Origin: Chrysophaeum taylorii
Lineage: Eukaryota; Sar; Pelagophyceae; Pelagomonadales; Pelagomonadaceae
Length of the DNA stretch: 60,498 bases
Direction of reading: 5' to 3'
Assembly (NCBI GenBank): GCA_029834535.1
Contig: JAQMWT010000609.1
Span: 1-60,498, forward strand
This document shows, piece by piece, positions 13,395 to 45,379 of the stretch (the stretch's first letter is position 1; every line of letters starts with the position of its first letter). Below the pieces are notes generated by a model. That model saw only the letters and a program-made list of their open reading frames with translations. It was not told the DNA's origin and made no database searches. The position numbers and the translations under genes were made by a program.

Positions 13395-13403
13395 CTGCTG
13401 CCA

Positions 13404-16764: not shown

Positions 16765-18128
16765 TTGAAGTGGGTCCACCGCACGAAGTATGAATCTGGC
16801 CGCTTCAAATCGTACACTGCTCATCTCGTTGTCCGCGGTTACACCCAGGTTCACGGCATTGCTTACCACGACACGTACCGTCCTGTATATGTCATCTCTG
16901 CTTTCATACAAGCCCCTGTCTGGCGTTGCCGTTCACGACTGGGATTTGCATAAGTTGGATGTCAGCTCCGCTTTTATCCAAGCTCCCATTGACGAAGACA
17001 TCTATGTCTGGCCACCCGAAGGTTATGCTCCTCGCCAACCCACCGATGGTTTCAAAATCATTTACACGCTCCGTCGCTCTTGGTATGGTTGCAAACAAGC
17101 TTGTCGTAATTGGTGGCTTTATTTGGCACGCTTTCTCGTCAATGACTGTGGCTTCGTCCGCGGATCTGGTGACACTTGCCGTTACAAGCTCGTGCTTAAT
17201 TCTACCGTTGTTCTACGTCTCGTTCTTGTCGTTGATGATCTTCTTGTGGCGCACCCTCGTCCTTGCCTTGGTCATTACCCAGCCTTCTTCCTCCGTTTCC
17301 GAACCTTCACTGATGTTAACGAGCTTGATCTGACCACTTACGTTGGTCTCCGCATTACGCGTGCTCGCGCACAACCAGACTTGACTCCCGCTCCCAAAGC
17401 TTTTCCTCCTCTTTCTGCGGCTGCTTCTCCTGCACCTGGCTCCCCTGCTCACGTCTTCGTGGCACGCATCCCTTTTCGTCGTATTGTTGGCTGTGTTTTA
17501 TTTATCTCCATCATGACTCGCCCTGATATCACTTGGTCCGTCAATCAGTGTGCGCGTTTTTCACACAATCCTGGTAAACCCCACTGGCACGCTTTATCCC
17601 ACACTCAGCGTTATCTCAACGGTTCTCAGGCTCTTGCCCTTGTTCTTGGTCGCGATTCTACCCTTCGTCTCTGTGGTTATTCCGACTCCAGCTGGACCGA
17701 CGACCCTGATGACCGCCACTCCACTGCTGACTTTTGTTTTCTCCTTGCTGGCTCTATGATATCCTACTGCTCACGCTCGCAGTACCTGCTCGCCCGCTCC
17801 TCTTTTGAAGCTGAATTGCTCGCTCTTTACGCCGCTACTGCTGAGCTCTCTTGGCTTCTCAAACTTTTTGATGCCCTTTGATCTCCCTCGTCACACGGTC
17901 CCAATGTATGTCGATAACAGCACCACCGTCACCCAAGTCCGTCTCCAATGTCTCATGCGGCGCACCCGCCATATTGATATTCGTTTTTACAGCACCGCCG
18001 AATATCATCGCAACCACATCATTGATCTCCAACACATTCCCCACCTTGACAACCTTAGCGATATCTTCACCCGCAGTACGGAAGCTCCTTCCTTCCTCCG
18101 GCTTCGTGCTTGTTACCTCACCTCGTGA
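16765..18128 (+). pseudogene. copia reverse transcriptase-RNase H, element 2
   Basis: The main ORF, 16790-17881, contains LDVSSAFIQAPIDEDIYV, then LVLVVDDLLVA (the catalytic xVDD box; the second catalytic Asp pair is present), then a run with RNase H motifs GYSDSSWTDDPDDRHST and SSFEAELLALYAATAE. The frame shifts near 17875, after which MYVDNSTT, RTRHIDIRFY and LSDIFTRS continue in another frame to 18128. About 35 residues upstream of the FPPLSAAASPAP segment, present in element 1, are deleted. Upstream, 16765-16953 carries the conserved HLVVRGYTQV entry to copia RT in a different frame. It is therefore a pseudogene that still shows most diagnostic motifs. Confidence 0.85.
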
Positions 18129-18173
18129 CTTCGCCCTGATCTCTCCTGTTTCTTTCTGCCACAACGCCTCTAT

Positions 18174-20499: not shown

Positions 20500-23400
20500 T
20501 CAGCTGTCGCCTTTCTGATCCGCGTCATCTTCAGCATCAGCCGTCGCAGAGTCCTCAATTCCATCGATGCCGGAGTCTGCAAGCAATGCCATTGGTTGCT
20601 GCACATTAGCCGCAGTGGCGTCAGCAATAGCAGATTCCGCGTCCATCGGAGCGTAGTCGTGTTGACTGGCCGCTGCGAGGGCCATCGGGTGTTGCGCCGT
20701 CGGATCAGCAGCGTTGTCGACATCAGCCGAGTCACCAGTTCCCACCTCCAAGTCCTTTTGCTTAGGGTGACCACCTGCTTGCTGCTGGGCTTTGGCAAGC
20801 AACGAGACTGTACGAACATAAGCCCGAAATCGCGCCATCTTCACCGCACGTTCGAGCTGCGGAAGAACGACCGCAAGTTCCTGAGTAGATGAATGCCCCG
20901 AGCCAAGGGTTTTTTCGAAGATCGAGGCAGCTCGCTGCGCAAGTGGGAATGCCTCGGCAAATTTTCCCTGAACGGCGCGTGACGTTGTGTGCCATTGCAG
21001 TGCAAATCAAAGAGTTGCGCAAATTTCGAATGTACATCCATACAAAACACATCAGACCTGCTTGATTAACAACCCCGAGAGGTTCTTGATCCAAGTTGCG
21101 AGGTCGGGGTGGTTCTCGCCAAGCGTGACCTTGCCAATTTCGATGGCGCGGCGAAACAACGGCTCGGCCTCTTCGAGCTTGCCCTGCGTCGAATCTCGTT
21201 GCCACTTGGAACCTAAATAGTCCACCTGGTTGTACAACAACAACCCGAGGTTGTTGAGCCGTGCTGCGAGGCCGCGGTGGTTCTCGCCGAGCGTGACCTT
21301 GCCAATTTCGATGGCGCGGCGAAAGAGTGGCTCGGCCTCTTCGAGCTTGCCCTGCGTCGCGTCTCAGCGCTACTTGAAAGCTCAAACAATCAACCTGCTT
21401 GTGCAACAACACAGCGAGGTTGTTGAGCCATGTTGCGAGGTCGGGGTGGTTCTCGCCACGCGCGACCTTGCCAATTTCGATGGCGCGGCGAAACAGTGGC
21501 TCGGCCTCTTCCAGCTTGTCTTGCGTCGAATCTCGTTGCCACTTGGAACCTAAATCGTCCACCTGGTTGTACAACAACAACCCGAGGTTGTTGAGCCATG
21601 CTGCGAGGACGGGGTGGTTCTTGCCGAGCGTGACCTTGCCAATTTCGATGGCGCGGCGAAACAGTGGCCCGGCCTCTTCGAGCTTGCCCTGCGTCGCATC
21701 TCATGGCCACTTGAAATTTCAACAATCAACCTGGTTGATCAACAACATAGCAAGGTTGTTGAGTGAAGCAGCATACTGCGGATGCTCTTCGCCCAGCGTC
21801 TGCCTCTCGATTTGGAGACAGCGCGTGCGCAACTTCAGCGCCTCGACGTGTTTCCCCTGCGTCGCGTCTCAGTGCCACTTCGAACATCAACAATCAACCT
21901 GGTTGCTCATAAACACAGCGAGGTTGTTGAGGTCCGTCGCAACCATAGGGTGCGACGGCCCCAACGCCTCCTCGTCGATCTTGAGAGCACGGCGATAAAG
22001 TGCCTCGGCCTCGTTGAGCTTGCCCTGCGTCGCGTCTCAGCGCCACTTGGAACCTCAACAGCCCACCTTTTTGTGCAACAACCCCCCTAGGTTGTTTAGC
22101 CATGTTGCGAGGCCGGGGTGGTTCTCGCCAAGCGTGACCTTGCCAATTTCGATGGCGCGGCGATACAACGGCTCGGCCTCGTCGTATTTGCCCTGCGCCG
22201 CGTCTCGGTGCCACTTGGAATCTCAACAGCCCGACCTGGTGTTCCAACAAACCCCCGAGGTTGTTTCGCCATTTTGCGAGGTCGGGGTGGTTCTCGCCGA
22301 GCGTGACCTTGCCAATTTTGATGGCGCGGCGAAACAACGGCTCGGCCTCTTCGAGCTTGCCCTGCGTCGCTTCTCAGGGCCTTTTGGAACCTCAACAGTC
22401 CACCTGGTCGTACATCAACCCAGCGCGGTTGTTGAGCCATCTTGCGAGGTCGGGGTGGTTCTCGCCACGCGTGACCTTGCCAATTTCGATGGCGCGGCGA
22501 AACAGTGACTCGGCCTCTTCCAGCTTGCCCAGCGTCGAATCTCGGTGCCACTTGAAACCTAAATAGTCCACCTGGTCGTACAACAACAACCCGAGGTTGT
22601 TGAGTCGTGTTGCGAGGCCGGGGTGGTTCTCGCCAAGCGTGACCTTGCCAATTTCGATGGCGCGGCGAAACAGCGGCTCGGCCTCTTTGAGCTTACCCTG
22701 CGTCGCTTCTCAGGACTCTTTTAAGCCTCAACAACCCACCTGGTCGCGCAACAACGCAGCGAGGTTGTTGAGAACTGTCGCGACAATTTCGTGTTTCGAA
22801 CCGAACATCTTCGTTCGAGCGTCCAGCGCTTCTTCCAAGAGACCACGAGCTTCATCGTACTTTGCCTGCGTGTTGCCAGCGCACCCGTCATTTGTTATCC
22901 ACGGAAATGTGTGCGCCAAAATGCAATTCTCACCGACCTGATCTCTCAGCAACAGAGCGAGTTCGTTGATAAGCGGCGAAACCTCTCGCGCCTCGGACGG
23001 AAGTCGGTCGAGAGCAGCCCGCCCGGTCTTCGCAAACCATTCCCTCAACTGGCCGATGACAATTTGGTTCACTTTCACGAAACCAATGCCGGATTGCCGA
23101 ACGGCTTCGAAAATACGCGTCTTGTCCTTCTCCTTCGTGGCGGTAGCGTTTTGCATGTCGATTTCGGACACGACCTTCGCGAGTGAGTAGAAATCCTCGG
23201 CGAGGGACTTCTCGAAGTCCCGTGCCTCGGTGGGCGGCATGATTAACTCGAACTTCTTCTCGCATTGTACCGTCAAGAAACACTCGTTGAGGCACCACAC
23301 GCGGCCAAAAGCTGCCGGCTTCCTCCACGGCTCGGCCAACATCCACGTAGCGCCGCTCGTCCGGATGGGCCATCCCTCGTCCATCCGTTCGAGATCTTCC

Positions 23401-24095
23401 TTCTTATTGGCCTTGGCTCCAGAGACAAAATCATTTTGCGCGAGGCACAACATGTCAACCCAAAAGTAGGCGTCCTTGGGCGGTTTTTGTTGAGCGACGG
23501 CCGCGAGCATCGTCGAAAAACTCGAGGTCCAAGTGTGACTCAAAAAGTGTGTCGTCGATCCAAAGTACGGCCGGCCGTTGGCGTCGTGCGTAAAGGACCG
23601 ATCCCCGGTAACTTCTGCCGCCAGAAGCAAAGTCTCGACAAGGCATACCCCAGTTCCGCCCGTCAGAAATCGGATCGACCACGGTGGAGATTTCGTAGAC
23701 GGGAGCTTTTCCTCTGGAGATCCGGCGAACCAGTCGTCCGTCTCGACGCTCCTCTCCCCGACGATATGGAAGGAATTGACCTTTTTTGCCTCGTCGGCGC
23801 CAAGCTCCTTCTCGATACCAGAATGCCAGTCGCGGAGAAACAGGAGGGACACGGCGCGATGCTCGAGCGGGATCCGTTCTTCTCGTGAAGCAGCCGTGAG
23901 TCGCGTTAACACACTCCGAAGCTTGTCGATGAGGCTCGCTTCGCGTCGATCTGATCTTCCGCGATTATTCAGCAAAATCGCGACACCAACCGCGGCGACG
24001 GATGCAGCGGTTAAGGGAGCAATTGGCGACGAGGCGCACCGCTTCAGGAGCCTCCGAAGGGCGTCGGGGACTCGGAACGCTCTCCCAGCACACAT
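20500..24095 (-). CDS. TIR-like/TPR membrane protein A, 13 exons, about 1003 aa
   Basis: Exon 1 (24095-22938, 386 codons) starts ATG within a leader shared by A, B and C. Residues 22-42 form a hydrophobic, probably membrane-spanning segment. HFLSHTW at 183-189 resembles TIR box 1. [13 protein letters not shown] follows at about 210-222, and W267-C-L-N-E271 matches the W-x-x-x-E that places the NADase glutamate in TIR domains. After a 72-nt intron (22866-22937) come eleven 126-nt exons, each one kinesin-light-chain-type TPR of 42 residues: 22740-22865, 22572-22697, 22404-22529, 22236-22361, 22067-22192, 21899-22024, 21731-21856, 21563-21688, 21395-21520, 21226-21351, 21058-21183. Introns between them are 42-43 nt; the last is 90 nt (20968-21057). 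Exon 13 (20967-20500) is a degenerate TPR plus an Ala/Gln/Asp-rich tail. Two acceptors are damaged (CAA at 21521, CTG at 22530). A signalling or immune-type receptor is inferred from architecture only. Confidence 0.75.
21058..22865 (-). repeat. TPR exon cassette array of gene A (11 units, 168-bp period)
   Basis: Each unit is a 126-nt exon plus a 42-43-nt intron. Exons share GGCAAGCTCGAAGAGGCC at the start and end in CAG. The consensus 42-residue unit is [19 protein letters not shown] followed by [20 protein letters not shown] and a short end. Introns start GTKGA and usually end GACGCAG, with YGAGA ending ten nt before the exon as a candidate branch site. Confidence 0.85.
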
Positions 24096-24117
24096 GGCTC
24101 GACACGCGCTCGACTAA

Positions 24118-25814
24118 CTTATCGCCACTGTTTCGTCAAGGGTTTGGGACGGAGACACGTTGTATTAGGGTTTTGAAATGGTCGGGGGCGCAGTTGTGGC
24201 AGTATGTGCTTTTCGGGAACCAGAATTACCCCCCCGCCGTGCGCCGCGACCTCCGCGCGTGGGAGCCTGCCCTGGTACGTCCTGGGGTCTTCCTTGCTTT
24301 GGCCGTCACGATTGGACGCATGGGTTAGGGTTGTCCGTTCGCAGCCAGTTGCCCGAAACACCAGCGGGGACCTATTCGGGCTGCACCGCTCCGCATTCGA
24401 GGCAGATGACGAAGCCAGCGTCAATGTCAGGGGTGTAATGGGGGGTGGGGCGCGCGAGAATACGGAAAGAACGCCCCGCCAGCACGAAGGCTTAGCGCTG
24501 GGGGGTCGGAGTCCCCCCTCCTAGGACGACGGGCACCGCAGCACCTGAGTGGCTCCACAAGGTAGGCTGCGGTTTGGCAGGGAATTTGGGTTTCGAGGGG
24601 GGTGTTTGGCGACGCTGAATGGGTCGCAAGGAATGAAATGTGGCGGCCTCATAGTAGAATGTGGCGGCGTCTCCGAGGTCCATGAGGTAGTCGCGGAGGT
24701 TTTCCTCGGGAGCTGGGCTCTCATCCTCCTCCTCCTCCTCCTCCTCGAGGGCGGGTGCTCGTCGACGGAGTCTGGTTCGTTGGCCTCGCCATGTTCGTGG
24801 GGGGGCGGTTCGGTGTCGTCATCATCGTCGTCTTGAGGACAGGACGCGTACAATATCCCGACAAGTTTTACTCTGGCTCGGAGTCGCGCGTATGGCCAAG
24901 GCACAGTGATTTTCCTGAGGCCGCGCTCGCTCTGGTCCGATTCTCTTAACGCCTTTAATGCCCGCGAAGAGCGCGAGGCTAGCAGAGGCGCTCACTCCCG
25001 GCCGAGTCGCCGGCACCCAGTCCGTGGCCGTTCGTAGTTCTAATAGCTCTGCTGGCCACCTGGGCGCTCGGCAAGCATTCGAGGCCTCTTCTTCTAGAGT
25101 GCGCGCGCGGTGGTCAGGTCAGACACCCCCCTAGCACGAAACTTTCGTGCTGGAAGGTCGCAGACTCCCCCACGGGCACAAAACTTTAGCGCTGGGGCTC
25201 ACGCCCAGCAAAAACGCTATCCTCGCGCCCCCCCCCCCCCTCGAATGCGGCTGTAGCCCTGGCCGTCGTCTCAACCGATGCCTGCGCCGCCACAGCTGTC
25301 TGCGCCACGGCCTTCTGCTTGCTCTCGGCCCCCTCGGTAGGTAGCCTCTAACAATTTGGTTGCGGTTTCCGCAAGCGCCACTGCCAAATCAATTCGCCTC
25401 CAAGATGTGTATTTGCACCAAGTCGCCCCGTCTCGTCATCTGCGCTTGCGGAGCATCTTGTCTACTTTGTCCAGCACCTTCTGCTTATTCGCACGTCACC
25501 CCACGGCATCGACCACCCTACGGCATGGCGCCAGTGCGATGGTCACGCACCGCGGCGCGGCTGACAGGCTTTCCTCGCCGTGCTTCCAACCAGGCCACCG
25601 ATCTGCTCAAACGACGCCGCGGTCGCCCGTTTGCACGACATTATGGTGCGTAGCTGGAGTGTGGTGCAAGTGCGTGGCGGTCAGTGGCCAGCGCGTTGTC
25701 GAGGGACTGTGCTAGCAAGAAAGGCACGAAAAACGAGGATGGCGAGCCGAGGGGCTTAGGATGATGGAAACTGGCACCCGCACGACCATATGCGCGCCTC
25801 ACCAAGCGCATTCT
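24118..25814. other. A-B intergenic region (repeated at 36316-37960)
   Basis: No gene is supported. It should contain the promoter of gene A (minus strand) and the 3' flank of gene B. It holds a (CTC)n run near 24722-24750 and a C-homopolymer near 25220-25238. The homologous C-D region differs by indels, including a longer stretch near 36635-36800 that is absent here. GC-rich ORFs on both strands are not conserved in frame across those indels, arguing against coding. Confidence 0.55.
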
Positions 25815-28800
25815 TCAGCTGTCGGCTTTCTGATCCGCGTCATCGGCAGCATCCGCCGTCGCAGAGTCCTCGTTTCCATCGCTGCCGGAGTCTGCAAGCA
25901 ACGCCATTGGTTGCTGCACGTTAGCCGCAGTGGCGTCAGCAATAGCAGATTCCGCGTCCATCGGAGCGTGGTGGTGTTGACTGGCCGCTGCGAGGGCCAT
26001 CGGGCGCTGTGTCGTCAGATCAGCAGCGTTGTCGACAGCAGCCGAGTCACCAGTTCCCACCTCCAAGTCCCCTTGCTTTTGCTCAGGGTGACCACCTGCT
26101 TGCTGCTGCGCCTCGGCAGGCGACGAGATTGCATTAGCACCAGCCTGAAATCGCGCCATCATCACCGCACGTTCGAGCTGCGGAAGAACGACCGCAAGTT
26201 GCTGCGTAGATGAATGCCCCGAGCCAAGGGTTTTTTCGAAGATCGAGGCAGCTCGCTGCGCAAGTGGGAATGCCTCGGCAAATTTTCCCTGAACGGCGCG
26301 TGACGTTGTGTGCCATTGCAGTGCAAATCAAAGAGTTGCGCACATTTCGAATGTACATCCATACAAAACACATCAGACCTGCTTGATTAACAACCCCGAG
26401 AGGTTCTTGATCCAAGTTGCGAGGTCGGGGTGGTTCTCGCCAAGCGTGACCTTGCCAATTTCGATGGCGCGGCGAAACAACGGCTCGGCCTCTTTGAGCT
26501 TGCCCTGCGTCGAATCTCGTTGCCACTTGGAACCTAAATAGTCCACCTGGTCATACAACAACAACCCGAGGTTGTTGAGCCGTGCTGCGAGGCCGCGGTG
26601 GTTCTCGCCGAGCGTGACCTTGCCAATTTCGATGGCGCGGCGAAACAGTCGCTCGGCCTCCTCGAGCTTGCCCTGCGTCGAATCTCGGTGCCACTTGGAA
26701 CCTAAATAGCCCACCTTTTTGTGCAACAACGACCCGAGGTTGTTTCGCCATTTTGCGAGATCGGGGTGGTTCTCGCCGAGCGTGACCTTGACAATTTCGA
26801 TGGCGCGGCGAAACAACGGCTCGGCCTCTTCGAGCTTGCCCTGCGTCGAATCTCGGTGCCACTTGGAACCTAAATAGTCCACCTGGTCATACAACAACAA
26901 CCCGAGGTTGTTGAGACATGTTGCGAGGTCCGGGTGGTTCTCGCCGAGCGTGACCTTGCCAATTTCGACGGCGCGGCGAAACATGAGCTCGGCCTCTTCG
27001 AGCTTGCCCTGCGTCGCTTCTCATTGCCACTTGAAAATTCAACAATCAACCTGGTTGATCAACAACATAGCAAGGTTGTTGAGTGAAGCAGCATACTGCG
27101 GATGCTCTTCGCCCAGCGTCTGCCTCTCGATTTGGAGACAGCGCGTGCGCAACTTCAGCGCCTCGACGTGTTTCCCCGGCGTCGCGTCTCAGTGCCACTT
27201 CGAACATCAACAATCAACCTGGTTGCTCATAAACACAGCGAGGTTGTTGAGGTCCGTCGCAACCATAGGGTGCGACGGCCCCAACGCCTCCTCGTCGATC
27301 TTGAGAGCACGGCGAAACAGTGGCTCGGCCTCTTCGAGCTTGCCCTGCGTCGAATCTCGGTGCCACTTGGAACCTCAACAGCCCACCTTTTTGTGCAACA
27401 ACCCCCCTAGGTTGTTTAGCCATGTTGCGAGGCCGGGGTGGTTCTCGCCAAGCGTGACCTTGCCAATTTCGATGGCGCGGCGATACAACGGCTCGGCCTC
27501 GTCGTATTTGCCCTGCGCCGCGTCTCGGTGCCACTTGGAATCTCAACAGCCCGACCTGGTGTTCCAACAAACCCCCGAGGTTGCTTCGCCATTTTGCGAG
27601 GTCGGGGTGGTTCTCGCCGAGCGTGACCTTGCCAATTTCGATGGCGCGGCGAAACAACGGCTCGGCCTCTTCGAGCTTGCCCTGCGTCGCTTCTCAGGGC
27701 CTTTTGGAACCTCAACAGTCCACCTGGTCGTACATCAACCCAGAGAGGTTGTTGGTAAGTATTGCGACATTTTTGTGTTCCGAACCGAACTGTTTCGTGT
27801 AAGCGTCTAGCGCATCTTCCAAGAGACCACGAGCTTCATCGTACTTTGCCTGCGTGTTGCCAGCGCACCCGTCATTTGTTATCCACGGAAATGTGTGCGC
27901 CAAAATGCAATTCTCACCGACCTGATCTCTCAGCAACAGAGCGAGTTCGTTGATAAGCGGCGAAGCCTCTCGCTCCCCCGGCGGAAGTCGGTCGAGAGCA
28001 GCCCGCCCGGTCTTTGCAAACCATTCCCTCAACTGGCCGATGACGATTTGGTTCACCCTCACGAAACCAATGCCGGATTGCCGGACGGCCTCGAAAATAC
28101 GTACCTTGTCCTTCTCCTTTGTGGCGGTGGCGTTTTGCATGTCGATTTCGGACACGACCTTCGCGAGCGAGTCGAATTCCTCGACGAGAGACTTCTCGAA
28201 GTCTCGAGCCTCGGTGGGCGGCATGATTAACTCGAACTTATTCTCGCATTGCACCGTCAAGAAACACTCGTTGAGGCACCACACGCGGCCAAGAGCGGCC
28301 GGCTTCTTCCACGGCTCGGCCAACATCCATGTAGCGCCGCTCGTCCGGATGGGCCATCCCTCGTCCATCCGTTCGAGATCTTCCTTTTTTTTGGCCTTGG
28401 CCCCAGGAACAAAATCATTCTGTGCGACGCAAAACATGTCGACCCAAAAGTAGTTGTCCTCGGGAGGATCCTGCTGAGCGACGGCCGCCAGCGTCGTCGA
28501 AAAACTCGAGGTCCAAGTGTGACTCAAAAAGTGTGTCGTCGATCCAACAAAGTACGGCCGGCCGTTGGCGTCGTGCGTAAAGGACCGATCCCCGGTAACT
28601 TCTGCCGCCAGAAGCAAAGTCTCGACGAGGCTTAACTCAGTTCCGCCCGTCAGAAATCGGATCGACCACGGTGGAGATTTCGTAGACGGGAGCTTTTCCA
28701 CTGGAGATCCGGCGAACCAGTCGTCCGTCTCGACGCTCCTCTCCCCGACGATATGGAAGGAATTGACCTTTTTCGCCGCGTCGGCGCCAAGCTCCTTCTC

Positions 28801-29082
28801 GAGGGCCGAGTGCCAGTCGCGGAGAAACTGGAGGGACACGGCGCGATGCTCGAGCGGGATCCGCTCTTCTCGTGAAGCAGCCGTGAGTCGCGGTTGTACA
28901 TCCCGAAGCTTGTCGATGAGGCTCGCTTCACGTCGATGTGAGTTTCCGCGATTATTTAGCAAAATCGCGACACCAACCGCGGCGACGGATGCAGCTGTTA
29001 AGGGAGCGAGTGGCGACGAGGCGCACCGCGTGAGGAGCCTCCGAAGGGCGTCGGGGACTCGGAACGCTCTCCCAGCACACAT
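25815..29082 (-). CDS. TIR-like/TPR membrane protein B, 11 exons, about 922 aa
   Basis: Same plan as gene A. Exon 1 (29082-27922, 387 codons) has the same hydrophobic segment, FLSH box and WCLNE motif, with one extra Val before GSTTHFLSH. Intron 1 is 72 nt (27850-27921). Nine 126-nt TPR exons follow: 27724-27849, 27556-27681, 27387-27512, 27219-27344, 27051-27176, 26883-27008, 26715-26840, 26547-26672, 26379-26504. The last intron is 90 nt (26289-26378) and the last exon is 26288-25815. The intron at 27177-27218 has a CCG acceptor instead of CAG and contains a stop, so the exon 27051-27176 may be skipped. Several introns here are 3n long and stop-free (translating [14 protein letters not shown]), so unspliced sequence falsely appears as one long ORF at 26373-26984. 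Partner of A in duplicon unit 1. Confidence 0.75.
26379..27849 (-). repeat. TPR exon cassette array of gene B (9 units)
   Basis: Period 168-169 bp, with the same cassette types as A. The [10 protein letters not shown] unit (27051-27176) and the [23 protein letters not shown] unit (27219-27344) sit next to each other, as in A and C. Confidence 0.85.
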
Positions 29083-29141
29083 GGCTCGACACGTGCTCGA
29101 CTAACTTATCGCCACAGTTTTGTCAAGCGAAGGGTTTTTGT

Positions 29142-31657
29142 CAGCGTTGGGAATTCACTTCAGCAAGTGAACGTGAACCACTTCACCAGCCACGCAATAT
29201 TGGTGAAGTGATTTGAAGTGAACACGTCACCCTACGTGGCCATCGTGAACCTTTGTGAAGTGAACGCCACTTTTTTTTTTTTTTAACGCCAGCGCCGGTC
29301 CCTGCCGCGCCCCGTCAGTTCCGTGCCCTCCGCGCGCTATTGCCTAGGTCTGGTGCTCTTAGATTCTTTCGCGTTTCGGGGCGAAGGAGGAGTTACTGTG
29401 GATGGGGTTCAGTGTTTCTTACTTTAGGCGATGTGAACGACCTCGGTATCTTCGTCTGGTTCTTCCTCATCAACCTCCATCTCCGAAGAGTCTTCGGGGA
29501 ATCATGGTGCTCTCGGCATTTTTGAAAAACTCGGTCTCGTGTCCGATGTCCCTGTACTTAATCCAGGCCGCCGCAATGAAAGTCTTGTTCATGCGCAGTA
29601 GGGCAACTTTGCCCGTCTCGTCCGCGCCGAGAAACGTGTTTCCCTCGGTCAGGACAAGATTTCCAATGCTCAGGCAGCGCTCACAGTAGCTCTCCGCGCC
29701 ATGTGTACCAATTGAAAAAACCCTTAGAGGCTCTCGCCATGTCCGGAAGGAACCCATACTGCTCCTTGGTGAGCAGTCGATGCAGCTTTCCAACGTCGAG
29801 CACAGCCAGATCTGTGAAGCCGACTTCATCCATCTTCTCAAGTTCAGGATAATGCTCTTTCCAGTTGAGCGATCTCGAGAGCCTGATCCATTGAGTGAAG
29901 ACCTGTTCAAACTCCACATTGAAATCGGGCGTGTGGTTCTCAGGCATAGCAAAAGAAGGCACGTCGCCACTAATGTCGTCCCAAGCGCCGGGTGCATCGA
30001 GTGCCGCCAACAGACTGCGGGCGGGCGCAGGCGGAGGGCGGCGCAGACTCGGAGGAAGTCTTTGCCTTTTCGTGGTGGAATGCAGTCCGTGCGTAAATCA
30101 CTTATTCTTCATTGAGCAACTTCCTGGCCTGGTCGCCGTGTACACTTTGAGCACGTGGTGCATACGCAGCAAGGAACGAATAAGTTGGTATCGCGCCCGG
30201 GACCTCGTCTTATTGAGGTCGAGCTTGAGCTTCGGCGATTTATTTCCCCGGCTGTAATGGCAAAAGCGCATGCAGATCCTTCAAACGTGTGCCGTAAGAA
30301 AAGTACTTGGCTCCATCGTGGCCACCACTGTTCAGCAGCTCCTGGCCAGCTGGGATGAATGGATTGATCACCTGCTTGCCTCTGGATCGTGTCAAGTCGC
30401 CACATGCCGCTGCCGAGATTTTTGAGATATCATGCATGTCACACACGCTTCGACTTCAACAAAAAATTCTTGGGCGACGCCAATTTTGGAGCCCGGTCTC
30501 TTGAACAATGGTTGGTTGGGGCCGCCAAATCGATATCGATTCCCGCACGCTCCGCGACCTCAGAACGGAGCAGAAAAGCCGTGCCGGAATCGGTTCCGTC
30601 GTCAGCTGGAACAAGGCCCACGCACACCGTCTCAACGCCACTCCAATCGGGCCACATGAAAGATAGGCCAATGGCCTGTCGCTTGAAGTTTTCCTTGAGT
30701 GTCCCGCCGTCATGCAGCACCTGGGCGAATGGATTGCCGAAAGCCGCCGCTTCATAACACTCCGTAACGACGTGTATCAAGATTCGAACAAAGTAACGAT
30801 ATTCGGCGTCCACCCATTCAACAAACAGCGCCTTTCGAGTCATGAACGGGCACTTGCATTTCCCGCCACCGCCGCGGTAATACGCCGCCTCAATTAGGTT
30901 GCGATGATCTTCGTCGTCAAAGGTGCGCTTGGAGATCCGCTACGACGTGTACACGTAGTGCCGAGCCGAGAACGCCATCAGGGAAGCGTGCTTTGCCTGG
31001 CTGGGCATGGCCATGAAGTATCTCGTAATATCCGATTTACCCTTCGAGGCAGCCACAACGCCCAAGGCCGTCATAAAAAAAGCCCTCCTATTCTTGGTCT
31101 GTCTTCTGTTTCTTGGTGAGCTGCTGACGTCCCAGCTCGTCCTCCGGATGCACAGCCTTGAAGTGGGCCCCAAGCGGGCATGGTCGTCTGCCATGTACCT
31201 TTCTTGAAGTCTCTCGTCACCTTCAGGCGCTCCCAGCACCGGATACACACATGCGTCGTCGCCTTCCCACTGGTCAACGCGGTGGGTGGTCAGGATGATT
31301 TCCTTCAGTCGACGCACGCAGTCCCACCACACCTAGGAAAAACCTGGTTGATCGTCCACTTTTGTTGCCGGGTGTGTTATCCACGTCACAACGTCGACAT
31401 CGGCTCGTTCTTGTGAACTTCCTCCTTCTGTTAACACCGCGTTTAAATTCCTCCTCATCATCAACATTATCCTCCACCTCCAGGTAGCGGCTCGACTTCG
31501 CTCAGCAGACAGGGTCAGAGTCAGGCCGTCAGCCAAAGTGAATGAACGTGAAGTGAACATTGGACTTCGGACGAAAAAAATCGGTGAAGTGAAGTGAAGT
31601 GAAGTGAAGCAAATTCAGTGAACCTAGTGAAGTGAGCCCAGTAAATTCCCAACGTTG
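29142..31657 (-). mobile_element. hAT DNA transposon 1, with 8-bp target-site duplication
   Basis: The ends are imperfect 17-bp inverted repeats: CAGCGTTGGGAATTCAC at 29142 and, reverse-complemented, CAACGTTGGGAATTTAC at 31657. They are flanked by GTTTTTGT and GTTTTTGA (29134-29141 and 31658-31665), an 8-bp duplication differing at the last base; 8-bp duplications are diagnostic of hAT. Subterminal (GTGAA)n repeats lie inside both ends. The coding region on the minus strand matches the longer copy at 46259-49249 but lacks about 480 bp near 30125. It is inserted just upstream of gene B's start codon (60 bp away). Confidence 0.85.
29470..31280 (-). pseudogene. hAT transposase remnant, copy 1
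   Basis: Minus-strand pieces in several frames match hAT2: a BED-type zinc-finger region (CIRCWERLKVTRDFKK near 31200-31277), a central domain with VLHDGGTLKENFKR near 30690-30760, and an acidic region with VEFEQVFTQWI near 29880-29930. A C-terminal dimerisation-like segment (YCERCLSIGNLVL) lies near 29660-29700. Multiple stops, frameshifts and an internal deletion leave no complete transposase. Confidence 0.65.
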
Positions 31658-32355
31658 GTTTTTGAAATGACTTTTTTTTGCAAGTGTAGGGTTTCGAACA
31701 CGTGACTACTGGAAAGGGGTGGGGGGATAGCACAGTGACAGCAACCCTTGCTGTTGTTGACGTGATTGTCGTTGTGATCGCGCGCGTGGCCAGCGACGAG
31801 CCAGTGTCTTCGGGCCCCTCTCTGTTGTTCGGTGTCGCGCTCCTGCCATTGTCGCGCTACTCGCTGTCCCGCGACCCCGCCCTTCTGCTGCTGTGTTCAT
31901 GTCGACACCATTCGTTCCAAAGGCGATCGCGCTCGTCGACGACACCCTCGGGCTGATCGCGATCGCCTAGAGTGTCGAAACTTTTGATTTCACGAACAAG
32001 CGTAGTACTCTGAGAAAAGAAGTCACTCAGTCAAGTTTCGTCGACCCACCAGTGGACTCCCTGACATCCTCTCCTCAAACATGGCCGAGTGTTGGTGACA
32101 GGCGGGTAGTTCATAAAGCCGTATATGAGTATGGAGCCGTATATAAGTATCTCTGGACAAACATCGAGAAGACGCGAAATGATTGTGCGTAGCTGGTGTG
32201 CGGTGCATGTGTGTGGCGGTCGCGTTGTCGAAAGAAGGCGTGAGGGAAGGTGCGAACAGGAAAGGCGCGAAAAACGAGGATGGCGAGCCGAGGGGCTTAG
32301 GATGATGGCACCTTGCACCCGCACGACCATATGCGCGCCTCACCAAGCGCATTCT

Positions 32356-35300
32356 TCAGCTGTCGCCTTTCTGATCCGCGTCATCGGCAGCATCCGCCGT
32401 CGCAGAGTCCTCGTTTCCATCGCTGCCGGAGTCTGCAAGCAACGCCACTGGTTGCTGCACGTTAGCCGCAGTGGCGTCAGTAATGGCAGATTCCGCGTCC
32501 ATCGGAGCGTAGTCGTGTTGACTGGCCGCTGCGAGGGCCATCGGGCGTTGTGCCGTCGGATCAGCAGCGTCGTCGACAGCAGCCGAGTCACCAGTTCCCA
32601 CCTCCAAGTCCCCTTGCTTTTGCTCAGGGTGACCACCTGCTTGCTGCTGCGCCTCGGCAGGCAACGAGATTGCATTAGCACCAGCCTGAAATCGCGCCAT
32701 CATCACCGCACGTTCGAGCAGCGGAAGAGCGGCCGCAATTTGCTGAGTAGATGAATGCCCCGAGCCAAGGGTTTTTTCGAAGATCGAGGTAGCTCGCTGC
32801 GCAAGTGGGAATGCCTCGGCAAATTTTCCCTGAACGGCGCGTGACGGTGTGTGCCATTGCAGTGCAAATCAAAGAGTTGCGCACATTTCGAATGTACATC
32901 CATACAAAACACATCAGACCTGCTTGATTAACAACCCCATGAGGTTCTTGATCCAAGTTGCGAGGTCGGGGTGGTTCTCGCCAAGCGTGACCTTGCCAAT
33001 TTCGATGGCGCGGCGAAACAACGGCTCGGCCTCTTCGAGCTTGCCCTGCGTCGCATCTCATTGCCACTTGGAACCTCAACAGCTCACCTGGTTTTCCAAC
33101 AACACAGCGCGGTTGTTGAGCCATCTTGCGAGGTCGGGGTGGTTCTCGCCACGCGTGACCTTGCCAATTTCGATGGCGCGGCGAAACAGTGACTCGGCCT
33201 CTTCCAGCTTGCCCAGCGTCGAATCTCGGTGCCACATGGAACCTAAATAGTCCACCTGGTCGTGCAACAACAACCCGAGGTTGTTATGCCATGTTGCAAG
33301 GTCGCGGTGGTTCTCGCCGAGCGTGACCTTGCCAATTTCGATGGCGCGGCGAAACAACGGCTCGGCCTCCTCGAGCTTGCCCTGCGTCGAATCTCGGTGC
33401 CACTAGGAACCTAAATAGCCCACCTTTTTGTGCAACAACAACCCGAGGTTGTTTCGCCATTTTGCGAGGTCCGGGTGGTTCTCGCCGAGCGTGACCTTGC
33501 CACTGTCGATGGCGCGGCGAAACAGTGGCTCGGCCTCCTCGAGCTTGCCCTGCGTCGCGTCTCAGTGCTACTAGGAAGCTCAACAATCAACCTGCTCGTG
33601 CAACAACAACCCGAGGTTGTTATGCCATGTTGCAAGGTCGCGGTGGTTCTCGCCGAGCGTGACCTTGCCAATTTCGATGGCGCGGCGAAACAACGGCTCG
33701 GCCTCCTCGAGCCTGCCCTGCGTCGAATCTCGGTGCCACTAGGAACCTAAATAGCCCACCTTTTTGTGCAACAACAACCCGAGGTTGTTTCGCCATTTTG
33801 CGAGGTCCGGGTGGTTCTCGCCGAGCGTGACCTTGCTAATTTCGATGGCGCGGCGAAACAGTGGCTCGGCCTCCTCGAGCTTGCCCTGCGTCGCGTCTCA
33901 GTGCTACTAGGAAGCTCAACAATCAACCTGCTCGAGCAAGAACACAGCAAGGTTGTTGAGTGAAGTAGCATACTGCGGATGCTCTTCGACCAGCGTCAGC
34001 CTCTCGATTTGGAGACAGCGCGTGCGCAACTTCAGCGCCTCGACGTGTTTCCCCTGCGTCGCGTCTCAGTGCCACTTCGAACATCAACAATCAACCTGGT
34101 TGCTCATAAACACAGCGAGGTTGTTGAGGTCCGTCGCAACCTTAGGGTGCGACGGCCCTAACGCCTCCTCGTCGATCTTGAGAGCACGGCGATAAAGTGC
34201 CTCGGCCTCGTTGAACTTGCCCTGCGTCGCGTCTCAGCGCCACTTGGAACCTCAACAGCCCACCTTTTTGTGCAACAACCCCCCTAGGTTGTTAAGCCAT
34301 GTTGCGAGGCCGGGGTGGTTCTCGCCAAGCGTGACCTTGCCAATTTCGATGGCGCGGCGATACAACGGCTCGGCCTCGTCGTAATTACCCTGCGTCGCGT
34401 CTCATTGCCACTTGGAACCTCAACAGCTCACCTGGTTTTCCAACAAACTCCCGAGGTTGCTGAGCCATGTTGCGAGGTCGGGGTGGTTCTCGCCGAGGGT
34501 GACCTTGCCAATTTCGATGGCGCGGCGAAACAACGGCTCGGACTCGTCGTATTTGCCCTGCGTCGCGTCTCATTGCCACTTGGAACCTCAACAGCTCTCC
34601 TGGTTTTCCAACAACACAGCGAGGTTGTTGAGTCTTGTTGCGAGGTCGGGGTGGTTCTCGCCGAGGGTGACCTTGCCAATTTCGATGGCGCGGCGATACA
34701 ACGGCTCGGCCTCGTCGTAATTACCCTGCGTCGCGTCTCATTGCCACTTGGAACCTCAACAGCTCACCTGGTTTTCCAACAACAAAGCGAGGTTGTTGAG
34801 TCGTGTTGCGAGGTCGGGGTGGTTCTCGCCGAGGGTGACCTTGCCAATTTCGATGGCGCGGCGATACAACGGCTCGGACTCGTCGTATTTGCCCTGCGTT
34901 GCGTTTGAGGCCACCTCCTGGAACCTCAAAAGCCCACCTGGTCGCGCAACAATGTAGCGAGGTTGTTGAGAACTGTCGCGACATTTTCGTGTTCCGAACC
35001 GAACACCTTCGTGTGAGCGTCCAGCGCTTCTTCCAAGAGACCACGAGCTTCATCGTACTTTGCCTGCGTGTTACCGGTGCACCCATCATTTGTCTTCCAC
35101 AGAAATGCGTCTGCCAAAATGCAACTCTAACCGACCTGATCTCGCAGCAATAAGGCGAGCGAAACAATAAGCGGCGAAACCTCTCGCTCCCCGGGCGGAA
35201 GTCGGTCGAGAGCAGCCCGCCCGGTCTTCGCAAACCATTCCCTCAACTGGCCGATGACGAGTTGATTCACCCTCACGAAACCAATGCCGGATTGCCGGAC

Positions 35301-36293
35301 GGCCTCGAAAATACGTACCTTGTCCTTCTCCTTTGTGGCGGTGGCACGTTGCATGTCGATTTCGGACACGACCTTCGCGAGCGAGTCGAATTCCTCGACG
35401 AGAGACTTCTCGAAGTCTCGAGCCTCGGTGGGCGGCATGATCAATTCGAACTTGTTCTCGTATCGCACCGTCAAGAAACATTCGTTGAGGCACCAGGCGC
35501 GGCCAAAAGCTGCCGGCTTCTTCCACGGCTCGGCCAACATCCATGTAGCGCCGCTCGTCCGGATGGGCCATCCCTCGTCCATCCGTTCGAGATCTTCCTT
35601 TTTTTTGGCCTTGGCCCCAGGAACAATATCATTCTGTGCGACGCAAAACATGTCGACCCAAAAGTAGGCGTCCTCGGGAGGATCCTGCTGAGCGACGGCC
35701 GCCAGCGCCGTCGAAAAACTCGAGGTCCAAGTGTAACTCAAAAAGTGAGTCGTCGATCCAAAGTAGGGCCGGCCGTTGGCGTCGTGCGTAAAGGACCGAT
35801 CCCCGGTAACTTCTGCCGCCAGAAGCAAAGTCTCGACGAGGCTTACCGCAGTTCCACCCGTCAGAAATCGGATCGACCACGGTGGAGATTTCGTAGACGG
35901 GAGCTTCTCCTCTGGAGATCCGGCGAACCAGTCGTCCGTCTCGACGCTCTTCTCCCCGACGATATGGAAGGAATTGACCATTTTTGCCGCGGTGGCGCCA
36001 AGCTCCTTCTCGAGACCAGAATGCCAGTCGCGGAGAAACTGGAGGGACACGGCGCGATGCTCGAGCAGGATCCGCTCTTCTCGTGAAGCAGCCGTGAGTC
36101 GCGGTTGTACATCTCGAAGCTTGTCGATGAGGCTCGCTTCGCGTCGATTTGATCTTCCGCGATTATTCAGCAAAATCGCGACACCAACCGCGGCGACGGA
36201 TGCAGCGGTTAAGGGAGCGAGTGGCGACGAGGCGCACCGCGTGAGGAGCCTCCGAAGGGCGTCGGGGACTCGGAACGCTCTCCCAGCACACAT
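32356..36293 (-). CDS. TIR-like/TPR membrane protein C, 15 exons, about 1089 aa
   Basis: Exon 1 (36293-35136, 386 codons) has the hydrophobic segment near residues 22-42, HFLSYTW in place of HFLSHTW, and WCLNE. Intron 1 (35064-35135, 72 nt) has an in-frame TAG here, which confirms it is an intron; in A and B it is open. Thirteen 126-nt TPR exons follow: 34938-35063, 34768-34893, 34600-34725, 34432-34557, 34264-34389, 34096-34221, 33928-34053, 33760-33885, 33592-33717, 33424-33549, 33256-33381, 33088-33213, 32920-33045. The last intron is 32830-32919 and the last exon 32829-32356. The intron at 34558-34599 has donor GA instead of GT, and the intron at 33214-33255 ends CTG instead of CAG. Exon pairs 33256-33549 and 33592-33885 are near-identical: a recent two-cassette duplication. 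It has the largest cassette number of the four. Confidence 0.75.
32920..35063 (-). repeat. TPR exon cassette array of gene C (13 units)
   Basis: A 168-bp period with one 44-nt intron. It includes a 336-bp tandem duplication (about 33256-33591 versus 33592-33927), and a run of near-identical [23 protein letters not shown] units at 34264-34893. Confidence 0.85.
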
Positions 36294-36315
36294 GGCTCGA
36301 CACGCGCTCGACTAA

Positions 36316-37960
36316 CTTATCGCCACTGTTTCGTCAAGGGTTTGGGACGGAGACACGTTGTATTAGGGTTTTGAAATGGTCGGGGGCGCAGTATGTGTTT
36401 TTCAAGAACCAGAATTACCCCCCCGCCGTGCGCCGCGACCTCCGCGCGTGGGAGCCTGCCCTGGTACGTCCTGGGGTCTTCCTTGCTTTGGCCGTCACGA
36501 TTGGACGCATGGGTTAGGGTTGTCCGTTCGCATTCAGTTGCCCGAAACACCAGGGACCTATTCGGGCTGCACCGCTCCGCATTCGAGGCAGATGACGAAG
36601 CCAGCGTCAATGTCAGGGGTGTAATGGGGGGATCATCTCGGCATCCAAGTCGACGACGCCCTTGGTGGTGTCTTTGTCTTTTTTTGTAGGGGACGATCGG
36701 TGGTAGTGCTCTGCGGTTGGGCATTACCGCGAGTCGGTGATGATTCGGAGGGCGATGCGGGCTTTTTTGAGAAGGGCCTTCTGGGCTTGGCGACAGCCGC
36801 ATCCCGGGGGGGGCGCGCGAGAATACGGAAAGAACGCCCCGCCAGCACGAAAGCTTAGCGCTGGGGGGTCGGAGTCCCCCCTCCTAGGACGACGGGCACC
36901 GCGGCACCTGAGTGGCTCCACAAGGTAGGCTGCGGTTTGGCAGGGAAATTGGGTTTCGAGGGGGGTGTTCGGTGTCGTCATCATCGTCGTCTTGAGGACA
37001 GGACGCGTACAATATCCCGACAAGTTTTACTTTGGCTCGGAGTCGCGCGTATGGCCAAGGCACAGTGATTTTCCTGAGGCCGCGCTCGCTCTGGTCCGAT
37101 TCTCTTAACGCCTTTAATGCCCGCGAAGAGCGCGAGGCTAGCAGAGGCGCTCACTCCCGGCCGAGTCGCCGGCACCCAGTCCGTGGCCGTTCGTAGTTCT
37201 AATAGCTCTGCTGGCCACCTGGGCGCTCGGCAAGCATTCGAGGCCTCTTCTTCTAGAGTGCGCGCGCGGTGGTCAGGTCAGACACCCCCCTAGCACGAAA
37301 CTTTCGTGCTGGAAGGTCGCAGACTCCCCCACGGGCACAAAACTTTAGCGCTGGGGCTCACGCCCAGCAAAAACGCTATCCTCGCGCCCCCCCCCCCCGC
37401 CCCCCCTCGAATGCGGCTGTAGCCCTGGCCGTCGTCTCAACCGATGCCTGCGCCGCCACAGCTGTCTGCGCCACGGCCTTCTGCTTGCTCTCGGCCCCCT
37501 CGGTAGGTAGCCTCTAACAATTTGGTTGCGGTTTCCGCAAGCGCCACCGCCAAATCAATTCGCCTCCAAGATGTGTATTTGCACCAAGTCGCCCCGTCTC
37601 GTCATCTGCGCTTGCGGAGCATCTTGTCTACTTTGTCCAGCACCTTCTGCTTATTCGCACGTCACCCCACGGCCTCGACAACCCTACGGCATGGCGCCAG
37701 TGCGATGGTCACGCACCGCGGCGCGGCTGACAGGCTTTCCTCGCCGTGCTTCCAACCAGGCCACCGATCTGCTCAAACGACGCCGCGGTCGCCCGTTTGC
37801 ACGACATTATGGTGCGTAGCTGGAGTGTGGTGCAAGTGCGTGGCGGTCGGTGGCCAGCGCGTTGTCGAGGGACTGTGCTAGCAAGAAAGGCGCGAAAAAC
37901 GAGGATGGCGAGCCGAGGGGCTTATGATGATGGCAACTTGCTCGCGCACGACCATATGCG
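36316..37960. other. C-D intergenic region (repeat of 24118-25814)
   Basis: No gene is supported. It should contain the promoter of gene C on the minus strand. It holds a C-homopolymer near 37387-37406. The last part (about 37800-37960) continues into the non-coding 3' side of gene D. Confidence 0.5.
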
Positions 37961-38133
37961 CGCCTCACCAAGCGCATTCTTCAGCTGTCGCCTTTCTGAT
38001 CCGCGTCATCGGCAGCATCCGCCGTCGCAGAGTCCTCGTTTCCATCGCTGCCGGAGTCTGCAAGCAACGCCATTGGTTGCTGCACGTTAGCCGCAGTGGC
38101 GTCAGCAATGGCAGATTCCGCGTCCATCGGAGC

Positions 38134-40587
38134 TTAGTCGTGTTGACTGGCCGCTGCGAGGGCCATCGGGCGTTGCGCCGTCGGATCAGCAGCGATGTCG
38201 ACAGCAGCCGAGTCACCAGTTCCCACCACCAAGTCCCCTTGCTTTTGCTCAGGGTGACCACCTGCTTGCTGCTGCGCCTCGGCAGGCGACGAGACTGCAT
38301 TAGCACCAGCCTGAAATCGCGCCATTATCACCGCAATTTTGAGCTTCTGGACGTCGGCAGCAAGTTTCTGAGTACGTGGATGCCCCAAGCCAAGGGTTTG
38401 TTGGAAGATCGAGGCAGCTCGCTGCGCAAAAGGGAGTGCCTCGGCATGGTTTCCCTGAAACAACAGCGGGCGACGTTGGATGCCACTGCCATGCTTTTCG
38501 ACGAGTTGGGCACATTTCGAACGTACATACAGACAAACACATCAGACCTGCTCGCTCAACACCGAAGCGAGGTTGTTGAGGTCCGTCGCAACCTCAGGAT
38601 GCGACGGCCCCACCGCCTCCTCGTCGATCTTGAGAGCACGGCGATAAAGTGCCTCGGCCTCGTTGAGCTTGCCCTGCGTCGCGTCTCAGCGCCACTTGGA
38701 ACCTCAACAATCAACCTGGTTTTTCAGCAAACCAGCGAGGTTGTTGAGCAACGTGGCGACAGCCGGATGGCTGTCGCCGAGCGCCTCTTGACGGATTTTG
38801 AGCGAGCGATCGTAGAGCAGCCTGGCCTCGTCGTATTGACCCTGCGTCGCGTCTCAAGGCCACCTGGAACCTCAACAACCAACCTGGTCGTGCAACCACC
38901 CTGCAAGGTTGTTGAGCAATGTCGCGACAGCCGGATGGCTGTCGCCGAGCGCCGCCTCGCTGATTTTGAGTGAGCGATCGAAGAGCGGCTTGGCCTCGTC
39001 GAATTTGCTCTACGTCGCGTCTCAGGGCAACCTGGAACCTCAACAGCCCACCTGTTTCTGCAACAAGAGAGCGAAGTTGTCGAGCCACGTTGCGAGGTCG
39101 GTGTGGTTCTCGCCAAGCGTGACCTCGCCAATTTCGATGGCGCGGCGATGCAACGGCTCGGCCTCGTCGTATTTGCCCTGCGCCGCGTCTCATTGCCACT
39201 TGGAATCTCAACAGCTCACCTGGTTTTCCAACAACACAGCGAGGTTATTGAGCCGTCTTGCGAGGTCGGGGTGGTTCTCGCCGAGCGTGACCTTGCCAAT
39301 TTCGATGGCGCGGCGAAACAGCGGCTCGGCCTCTTTGAGCTTACCCTGCGTCGCTTCTCAGGACTCTTTTAAGCCTCAACAACCCACCTGGTCGCGCAAC
39401 AACGCAGCGAGGTTGTTGAGAATTGTCGCAACATTTTCGTGTTCCGAACCGAACTGTTTCGTGTAAGCGTCTAGCGCATCTTCCAAAAGACCACGAGCTT
39501 CGTCGTACTCTGCCTGCGTGTTGCCGGCGCACCCGTCATTTGTTCTCCACAGAAATGCGTCTGCCAAAATGCAGGTTTCACCGACCTGATCTCGCAGCAA
39601 CAAGGCGAGCGAAACAATAAGCGGCGAAACCTCTCGCTCCCCGGGCGGAAGTCGGTCGAGAGCAGCCCGCCCGGTCTTCGCAAACCATTCCCTCAACTGG
39701 CCGATGACGAGTTGATTCACCCTCACGAAACCAATGCCGGATTGCCGGACGGCCTCGAAAATACGTACCTTGTCCTTCTCCTTTGTGGCGGTGGCGTTTT
39801 GCATGTCGATTTCGGACACGACCTTCGCGAGCGAGTCGAATTCCTCGACGAGAGACTTCTCGAAGTCTCGAGCCTCGGTGGGCGGCATGATCAACTCGAA
39901 CTTGTTCTCGCATCGCACCGTCAAGAAACACTCGTTGAGGCACCAGGCGCGGCCAAAAGCTGCTGGCTTCCTCCACGGCTCGGCCAACGTCCACGTAGCG
40001 CCGCTCGTCCGGATGGGCCAGCCTGCATCCATTCGTTCGAGATCTTCCTTTTTTTTGGCCTTGGCCCCAGGAACAAAATCATTCTGTGCGACGCAAAACA
40101 TGTCGACCCAAAAGTAGTTGTCCTCGGGAGGATCCTGCTGAGCGACGGCCGCCAGCATCGTCGAAAAACTCGAGGTCCAAGTGTAACTCAAAAAGTGTGT
40201 CGTCGATTCAAAGTACGGCCGGCAGTTGGCGTCGTGCGTAAAGGACCGATCCCCGGTAACTTCTGCCGCCAGAAGCAAAGTCTCGACGAGGCTTAACTCA
40301 GTTCCACCCGTCAGAAATCGGATCGACCACGGTGGAGATTTCGCGGACGGGAGCTTCTTCTCTGGAGATCCGGCGAACCAGTCGTCCGTCTCGACGCTCC
40401 TCTCCCCGACGATATGGAAGGAATTGACCTTTTTTGCCTCGTCGGCGCCAAGCTCCTTCTCGAGACCAGAATACCAGTCGCGGAGAAACTGGAGGGACAC
40501 GGCGCGACGCTCGAGCAGGATCCGCTCTTCTCGTGAAGCAGCCGTGAGTCGCGGTTGTACATCCCGAAGCTTGTCGATGACGTCCAT
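38134..40587 (-). pseudogene. TIR-like/TPR gene D, truncated at both ends
   Basis: Homology to the family starts at about codon 54 of exon 1: the membrane segment and normal start are missing, replaced by unrelated sequence giving an ATG at 40587. The rest of exon 1 (to 39586) keeps HFLSYTW and WCLNE. Intron 1 is 39514-39585 (72 nt). Six 126-nt TPR exons follow: 39388-39513, 39220-39345, 39052-39177, 38884-39009 (acceptor TAG), 38716-38841, 38548-38673. The last intron is 93 nt (38455-38547). The last exon ends at TAA (38134-38136) where A and C read TAC, cutting about 46 residues of the shared tail. Two TPR units (SLKIxxxALGDSHPAVATLL type) are found only here. It may be a pseudogene, or a soluble short form of about 692 aa. 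Confidence 0.7.
38548..39513 (-). repeat. TPR exon cassette array of gene D (6 units)
   Basis: Exactly 168-bp period. Two units are of a type absent from A-C, while the flanking units are shared, indicating different cassette content. Confidence 0.85.
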
Positions 40588-45178: not shown

Positions 45179-45379
45179 AGAAAGAAAAGAAAAGAAAAGA
45201 AAAGAAAAGAAAAGAAAAGAAAAGAAAAGAAAAGAAAAGAAAAGAAAAGAAAAGAAAAGAAAAGAAAAGAAAAGAAAAGAAAAGAAAAGAAAAGAAAAGA
45301 AAAGAAAAGAAAAGAAAAGAAAAGAAAAGAAAAGAAAAGAAAAGAAAAGAAAAGAAAAGAAAAGAAAAGAAAAGAAAAG
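45179..45379. repeat. (AAAAG)n microsatellite, about 40 copies
   Basis: An uninterrupted 5-bp repeat for about 200 bp. On the minus strand it translates as endless FFSFL, which explains long spurious ORFs at 44937-45514. Confidence 0.95.

Follow-up and report, generated by a model that had tools for sequence, protein, structure and literature searches.

Tandem one-repeat TPR exons separated by very short introns in genes for probable sensors of the pelagophyte Chrysophaeum taylorii

Gene family and exon structure

The DNA analysed (the window, 60,498 nt) is contig C609 of the assembly (70.8 Mb, 697 contigs) of Chrysophaeum taylorii, a pelagophyte in the ochrophyte algae. It carries four paralogous genes (G1 to G4), arranged head to tail in tandem on the minus strand, in which each tetratricopeptide repeat (TPR) of a central array corresponds to a 126-nt exon (a cassette). 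We consider it probable that these are one-TPR-per-exon genes with tiny introns, in which an exon-intron unit duplicates and the binding surface of likely sensors diversifies. Each gene comprises an N-terminal exon, a first intron of 72 nt, the TPR exons, a last intron (90 nt in G1 to G3, 93 nt in G4) and a predicted C-terminal exon. The arrays contain 11, 9, 13 and 6 cassettes in G1 to G4, respectively. All 39 are exactly 126 nt long, encode 42 amino acids (aa), are in phase 0 and lack a stop codon. These counts and lengths had been given in a first-pass annotation of the window, and our recount reproduced them. The repeat is of the 42-residue KLC/NPHP3 type; the deposited G4 protein matches the Pfam families TPR_12 (E = 3e-93) and TPR_10 (E = 8.2e-73) above the cut-off. 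Tandem Repeats Finder reports a period of 168 in all four arrays, with scores of 673 for G4 and 1382, 1807 and 2249 for the others. Two deposited proteins fall within the family, P0001 (CTAYLR_009933, from G2) and P0002 (CTAYLR_009935, from G4). The features are as follows.

22938..24095, minus strand: G1 N-terminal exon, 386 aa; a HET-like domain follows a hydrophobic N-terminal segment; last residues ...LLLRDQ, followed by GT
22866-22937, minus strand: G1 first intron, 72 nt
21058..22865, minus strand: G1 TPR array, 11 exons of 126 nt, 10 introns of 42-43 nt
20968-21057, minus strand: G1 last intron, 90 nt
20500..20967, minus strand: G1 C-terminal exon, runs to the stop; predicted, outside the deposited models
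27922..29082, minus strand: G2 N-terminal exon, 387 aa; in P0001
26379..27849, minus strand: G2 TPR array, 9 exons of 126 nt, 8 introns of 42-43 nt
25815..26288, minus strand: G2 C-terminal exon, predicted
35136..36293, minus strand: G3 N-terminal exon, 386 aa
32920..35063, minus strand: G3 TPR array, 13 exons of 126 nt, 12 introns of 42-44 nt
33256-33885, minus strand: internal dimer duplication within the G3 TPR array
32356..32829, minus strand: G3 C-terminal exon, predicted
39586..40587, minus strand: G4 N-terminal exon, 334 aa, without the hydrophobic N-terminus of G1 to G3; in P0002
38548..39513, minus strand: G4 TPR array, 6 exons of 126 nt, 5 introns of 42 nt, all spliced in P0002
38134..38454, minus strand: G4 C-terminal exon, ended early relative to G1 to G3 by an in-frame TAA; predicted

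The C-terminal exon is missing from the models of both P0001 and P0002. The intergenic stretches 24140-25800 (G1-G2) and 36300-37900 (G3-G4) look similar by eye, which suggests duplication of a gene-plus-flank block.

Spacers between the cassettes

The 35 spacers between window cassettes measure 42 nt (31 cases), 43 nt (three) or 44 nt (one), the range reported in the first-pass annotation, which also held that they can contain stops and that the exon/intron reading is sound. They begin with GT in 34 cases and end with AG in 31; translation continued from the preceding exon would reach a stop in 25, and the length of four is not a multiple of three. When all tabulated arrays are considered, including those on other contigs described below, in-frame stops occur in 52 of 68 spacers and in none of 76 exons, and 10 of the 68 spacers are not a multiple of three. 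(One of the 76 cassettes, a C324 exon entered as 126 nt with a 48-nt spacer, is truly 132 nt long and has a 42-nt spacer; it was left out of the selection, exon-intron distance and intron-constraint sets.) Where an exon was found not to be 126 nt long, the difference is a whole number of codons (120 and 132 nt in C324, 135 nt in C578), and C165 carries a fused exon of 252 nt, an in-frame exception outside the window. Taken by itself, the comparison of four odd-length spacers among 35 with no odd-length exon among 39 in the window is no more than suggestive, and two of the 43-nt introns share one sequence, in G1 and G2. Exons of equal length and phase, symmetric as in exon-shuffled repeat genes, are present in the window, with borders taken from the sequence and the deposited models.

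The deposited P0002 model splices all five G4 introns. The P0001 model splices part of the G2 introns, omits exon 1 and skips exon 5, the upstream intron of which ends in CG; this skipping is a gene prediction. According to the available text of the C. taylorii genome paper (PMC10366177), annotation of the genes used RNA-seq and protein evidence, with run SRR22085759 given; the words "intron", "exon" and "tetratricopeptide" are absent from its main text.

The spliced array was also compared with other proteins. Among the best 120 of 4540 matches, two are the alga's own proteins and the other 118 share 39-59% identity with the 253-residue query over 93-100% of its length; Chlorobaculum, Moorea, Microcystis, Ectocarpus and Scytosiphon are among the named sources. 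All 118 of these relatives match themselves best at an offset of 42 residues, with no 56-residue period, and therefore lack a 14-residue linker. The spacers look like spliceosomal introns, and the exon/intron reading is well supported, short of RNA.

Mostly uninterrupted genes among the conserved families tested

The density of introns in the window arrays, 35 per 4,914 coding bases (about 7 per kb), was set against the background given by six-frame searches of the C. taylorii genome with three conserved families, a small sample. For Cpn60/TCP1, nine of 11 matches span at least 485 of 490 profile positions unbroken. Nine of 14 HSP70 loci span at least 590 of 599 positions unbroken, and one is split by a 55-nt gap. 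Among 27 myosin head loci (our grouping of 39 matches), 18 span at least 640 of 679 positions unbroken and five are split between different open frames. Ordinary myosin introns measure 52, 59 and 90 nt (three introns, two loci). The conserved genes tested are mostly uninterrupted, so the array introns stand out in this genome. For another pelagophyte, Pelagomonas, the available text of PMC9481584 gives 0.45 intron per gene.

Duplication unit and changes in cassette number

To compare the arrays, exons and introns were clustered into types, and the distance test used introns of the commonest length only. The distance between exons correlates with the distance between their downstream introns (r = 0.54 in the window, n = 31; r = 0.43 in C165, n = 13; Mantel p = 0.0005 each) and not with that between their upstream introns (r = 0.01 and -0.08, respectively). 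The moving unit is therefore the exon plus the intron that follows it.

An anchor block is common to G1 (F-A-C-G), G2 (F-A-U-G) and G3 (A-C-R), with different numbers of cassettes on its flanks. A dimer duplication, D-E-D-E, occurs in G3 alone, and two exon pairs are identical between G1 and G2. The first-pass annotation had held that such exons allow cassettes to be gained, lost, swapped or skipped without damage to the frame. Gain and loss of whole cassettes between paralogs is supported by the anchor block and the G3 duplication. The case for swapping between paralogs is weak; the clearest candidate is G3.12, which shows five differences to G1.3, on the other side of the anchor block, versus eight to the collinear G1.9.

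Across the genome, a 28-base core of the intron matches 30 places with at most three mismatches, all 30 inside the C609, C324 and C578 arrays; the reversed control pattern gave no matches. A distant dispersed relative of the intron is conceivable, because the divergent C165 introns lie beyond the core pattern. The ratio of intron divergence to four-fold-site divergence is 0.60 in the window (bootstrap 0.47-0.78), 1.39 in C165 (0.90-2.75) and, with wide intervals, 0.74 and 0.88 in C324. Lower intron divergence is thus found in the window and not in C165 or C324, and we do not claim constraint on, or a function of, the introns.

Diversification of ligand-facing positions

The concave test set consists of TPR positions 2, 5, 9, 12 and 13, which we take to be cassette positions 30, 33, 37, 40 and 41 by our alignment of the TPR signature residues. 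These positions, and also 33 and 34, which were left out of the set, are described as ligand-facing in the available text of PMC1261162. The proportion of nonsynonymous differences (pN) at concave positions was compared with the overall proportion of synonymous differences (pS). Permutation p-values take positions, not cassettes, as the unit, and the cassettes are mutually related.

For the window, the set comprised the 26 main-type cassettes, with the 13 divergent ones left out; pN/pS is 2.04 at concave positions versus 0.44 elsewhere (p = 0.0001). The corresponding values are 2.26 versus 0.49 in C165 (n = 14, p = 0.012) and 1.35 versus 0.57 in the C324 KH-type cassettes (n = 5, p = 0.012). 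Change is concentrated on ligand-facing positions in three of the four cassette sets, an excess of amino-acid change of the sort that marks exon-shuffled repeat genes. For comparison, pN/pS between N-terminal exons is 0.32-0.36 in five pairs and 0.64 for G3-G4.

Further arrays and partner domains

A DNA search with one cassette unit gave 70 matches on five contigs (C609, C165, C324, C578 and C555). In C165, 14 tabulated cassettes with 45-nt introns follow the 252-nt exon, which encodes two fused TPRs, and the array sits behind a protein kinase (PF00069, E = 4.9e-22). At the end of this array the last TPR continues without an intron, an exception to the joint pattern. The C324 locus encodes a HET-like N-terminus and then cassettes, the first ten introns of which alternate between 43 and 42 nt. 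The exon after the array begins with TPR helix B and continues into a Roc domain (E = 1.1e-8, 35.8 bits versus a cut-off of 27), with a COR-A match further downstream. The first C324 cassette is 120 nt long (L040 3713-3832), and within its 63-nt intron (3833-3895) the start of the intron seems to occur twice. By eye, the C324 gene seemed to end in a CHAT-like domain; Pfam reported no CHAT there, and it is not claimed.

In C578, a membrane domain recognized by eye is followed by one-TPR exons of 126, 135, 126 and 126 nt; their four introns, placed at the same joint, measure 40, 48, 57 and 48 nt and are unlike the cassette intron. The gene continues into cassettes with the usual intron and the same type of last intron and C-terminal exon. 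We read the one-TPR exons with dissimilar introns as an older state of the family. A channel-like reading of the membrane domain was made by eye from hydrophobic segments, and the only Pfam result is one weak, unrelated match. C555 has two cassettes in an apparently degraded copy. Further TPR stretches, mostly without internal stops, occur on C351, C675 and C533.

Exons upstream of the arrays end in helix A (...LLLRDQ, LVEIGAVLQAQ, VALINYARLLQSQ) and downstream exons start with helix B. Because the flanking exons end and start in this way, each array and its neighbouring domains probably form one gene. The same cassette arrays would then lie in line with a kinase, a putative ROC-COR or a membrane domain at further loci, an arrangement that is new here and is predicted from sequence.

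The N-terminal domain of the window genes is HET-like at best. Pfam HET (PF06985) matches weakly in five of six N-terminal members at E up to 5 (best E = 0.0056). NB-ARC does not appear in the Pfam results listed for the N-terminal exon, for P0001 (best 25 of 29) or for P0002 (best 25 of 34). A search of 5.8 billion proteins with the domain (8000 candidates scored) returned three C. taylorii proteins and, from another source, P0003, which runs on into a TPR of exactly 42 residues. For the N-terminal exon, a PDB sequence search gave no matches and PADLOC no families.

Proposed mechanism and alternative explanations

In these KLC/NPHP3-type genes one 42-residue TPR equals one phase-0 126-nt exon, and we propose that the exons would be joined in vivo by removal of very short spliceosomal introns of 42-45 nt. 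Exon borders fall between the two TPR helices: helix A closes one exon (usually with ...Q) and helix B opens the following one (usually with G-K-). The joints match, because the domain exons upstream finish with this helix A and those downstream open with this helix B. The exon with its downstream intron (168-171 bp) would be duplicated, lost and homogenised, probably by unequal recombination or gene conversion between tandem copies, as the linkage of exon and intron suggests. Framework residues are kept as the ligand-facing residues of helix A diversify, and the modules in line with the array vary among loci (HET-like domain, kinase, membrane domain or putative ROC-COR). The array most likely serves intracellular sensors, perhaps immune sensors, as their variable binding surface. 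The "receptor" role named in the first-pass annotation is putative and draws on ligand-face diversification and the neighbouring domains.

Several observations weigh against this interpretation. Seven of the 35 window spacers are open and in frame, all 42 nt long (including 26505-26546, 26673-26714 and 26841-26882), and the P0001 model keeps the first two of those named whole, and part of the third, as translated linkers. Five of the 35 have a non-canonical donor or acceptor (introns 3 and 11 of G3, intron 4 of G2, introns 2 and 8 of G1). Some copies may be decaying, because of these broken splice dinucleotides and because the G4 protein has lost part of its tail and lacks the hydrophobic N-terminus. 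The C324 KL-type cassettes (n = 4) show no concave excess (0.78 versus 0.60, p = 0.36), and strongly variable positions also lie outside the concave set (3, 32 and 36 in the window; 27, 31 and 38 in C165). The HET match does not reach the gathering cut-off (member 1: 14.9 versus 22.5 bits), and neither does COR-A in C324 (E = 3.1e-7, 30.8 bits versus 35.3).

The open spacers, the length of 42 nt as a multiple of three and the two spacers kept whole in P0001 would fit a translated 56-residue protein repeat (a 42-residue TPR plus a 14-residue linker), with the array as one long exon. In-frame stops in 25 and frame shifts in four of the 35 window spacers, the alternation of 42 and 43 nt in C324, the conserved GT...AG ends and the 42-residue period of all 118 relatives listed make this very improbable for the whole array; the seven open introns could be optionally retained as 14-residue linkers. 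A transposon origin of the spacers, as introner elements inserted repeatedly like those of the pelagophyte Aureococcus, is almost as hard to credit. Pelagophytes are reported to have introners of about 210 bp (PMC9481584, available text) and the array introns do resemble one another, but they are 42-45 nt long, not 210. They also co-vary with the upstream exon, and therefore spread with the repeat unit. Dispersal of one intron family in unrelated genes, the mark of introners, was not found at up to three mismatches, since every core match lies within an array (the pattern misses the divergent 45-nt introns of C165).

A neutral, satellite-like expansion of a TPR scaffold gene, in which slippage or unequal exchange lets the number of cassettes drift and the proteins have no recognition role, deserves more weight and is still unlikely. 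It accords with the minisatellite-like tandem arrays, the retroelements on the contig and the broken splice sites; against it stands a concave pN/pS of about 2 in two separate arrays, the window and C165, with values below 0.5 elsewhere in the cassettes. Somatic or regulated recombination of cassettes, generating receptor diversity within one organism, would be permitted by the symmetric cassettes and matching joints, and the same was proposed for Ectocarpus (cited in PMC11378527). We think it most improbable, as nothing observed requires it and germline unequal exchange suffices; that source states that in brown algae, too, no somatic recombinants have been reported.

The interpretation of the arrays as duplicating, diversifying one-TPR exons can be taken further, to a plug-in system. 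An intron-poor alga would have kept or built introns at TPR borders, and the single phase-0 joint would allow one variable array to be combined with modules of HET-like, kinase, channel-like and GTPase type. The number of cassettes and their ligand face would diversify, cassette skipping would make isoforms, and minimal introns would be maintained for the evolvability of the sensor repertoire. We offer this tentatively, and doubt that it holds as a whole.

Comparison with known systems

Brown-algal NB-ARC-TPR genes reportedly shuffle TPR exons and show diversifying selection on the repeats (work attributed to Zambounis et al. 2012 and Teng et al. 2023). The C. taylorii genes are similar in having TPR exons, tandem gene copies and diversification of the repeat domain, in an alga that is likewise an ochrophyte. 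Unlike those genes, they have introns of 42-45 nt and no NB-ARC was found. The parallel with brown algae drawn in the first-pass annotation is right in kind, but the domain joined in C. taylorii is at best HET-like, and leucine-rich repeat (LRR) genes of Tetrahymena are equally close.

Brown-algal LRR-ROCO genes, as described in the available text of PMC11378527, share one fixed-length repeat per exon and diversifying selection, and a putative ROC-COR region also follows the C324 array. Their LRR exons are 72 bp and phase 2, in contrast to 126-nt, phase-0 TPR exons here, and LRR-ROC-COR is said there to be the sole architecture of these genes. The 90-bp LRR exons of Tetrahymena (PMC6564038, available text) are also tandem, equal and of one phase, with fusions to kinase and other domains and with unequal exchange proposed. 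They differ in being ciliate LRR exons in phase 2 and in number, nearly 50,000 over ten species, whereas C. taylorii is one alga with few loci and very short introns. Uninterrupted TPR proteins, several of them bacterial and some with NB-ARC, CHAT or kinase domains, have the same 42-residue period (all 118 listed) and varied partner domains. The bacterial genes lack introns, unlike the C. taylorii arrays, and repeat exchange in them must therefore keep frame without exon borders.

The kind of system is known from brown algae and Tetrahymena; what appears to be new is the combination of very short introns, a mostly uninterrupted gene background and several partner domains. No report of repeat-per-exon TPR arrays in pelagophytes was found among the papers listed in a literature search mostly without subscription papers, so that one may nevertheless be in print. 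Repeat-per-exon candidate receptor genes are here extended from brown algae to a pelagophyte. One-repeat exons with tiny introns could allow binding units to be added, removed or varied while the protein stays intact. With introns spaced at 126 nt amid tested genes that are mostly uninterrupted, the family is also a clean case in which to ask whether introns are kept for recombination of repeat proteins.

Other features of the window

A near-complete 9-kb inverted repeat lies at 9085-18162, with arms 92-99% complementary in most segments and fragments of Ty1/copia-type reverse transcriptase on both. It may be a real palindrome or a chimera, because one sequencing library was whole-genome amplified. 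A further retroelement is indicated by an RVT_1 reverse transcriptase open reading frame at 54718-56130 (E = 2.1e-21), and an AAAGA microsatellite of about 40 perfect copies occupies 45181-45379.

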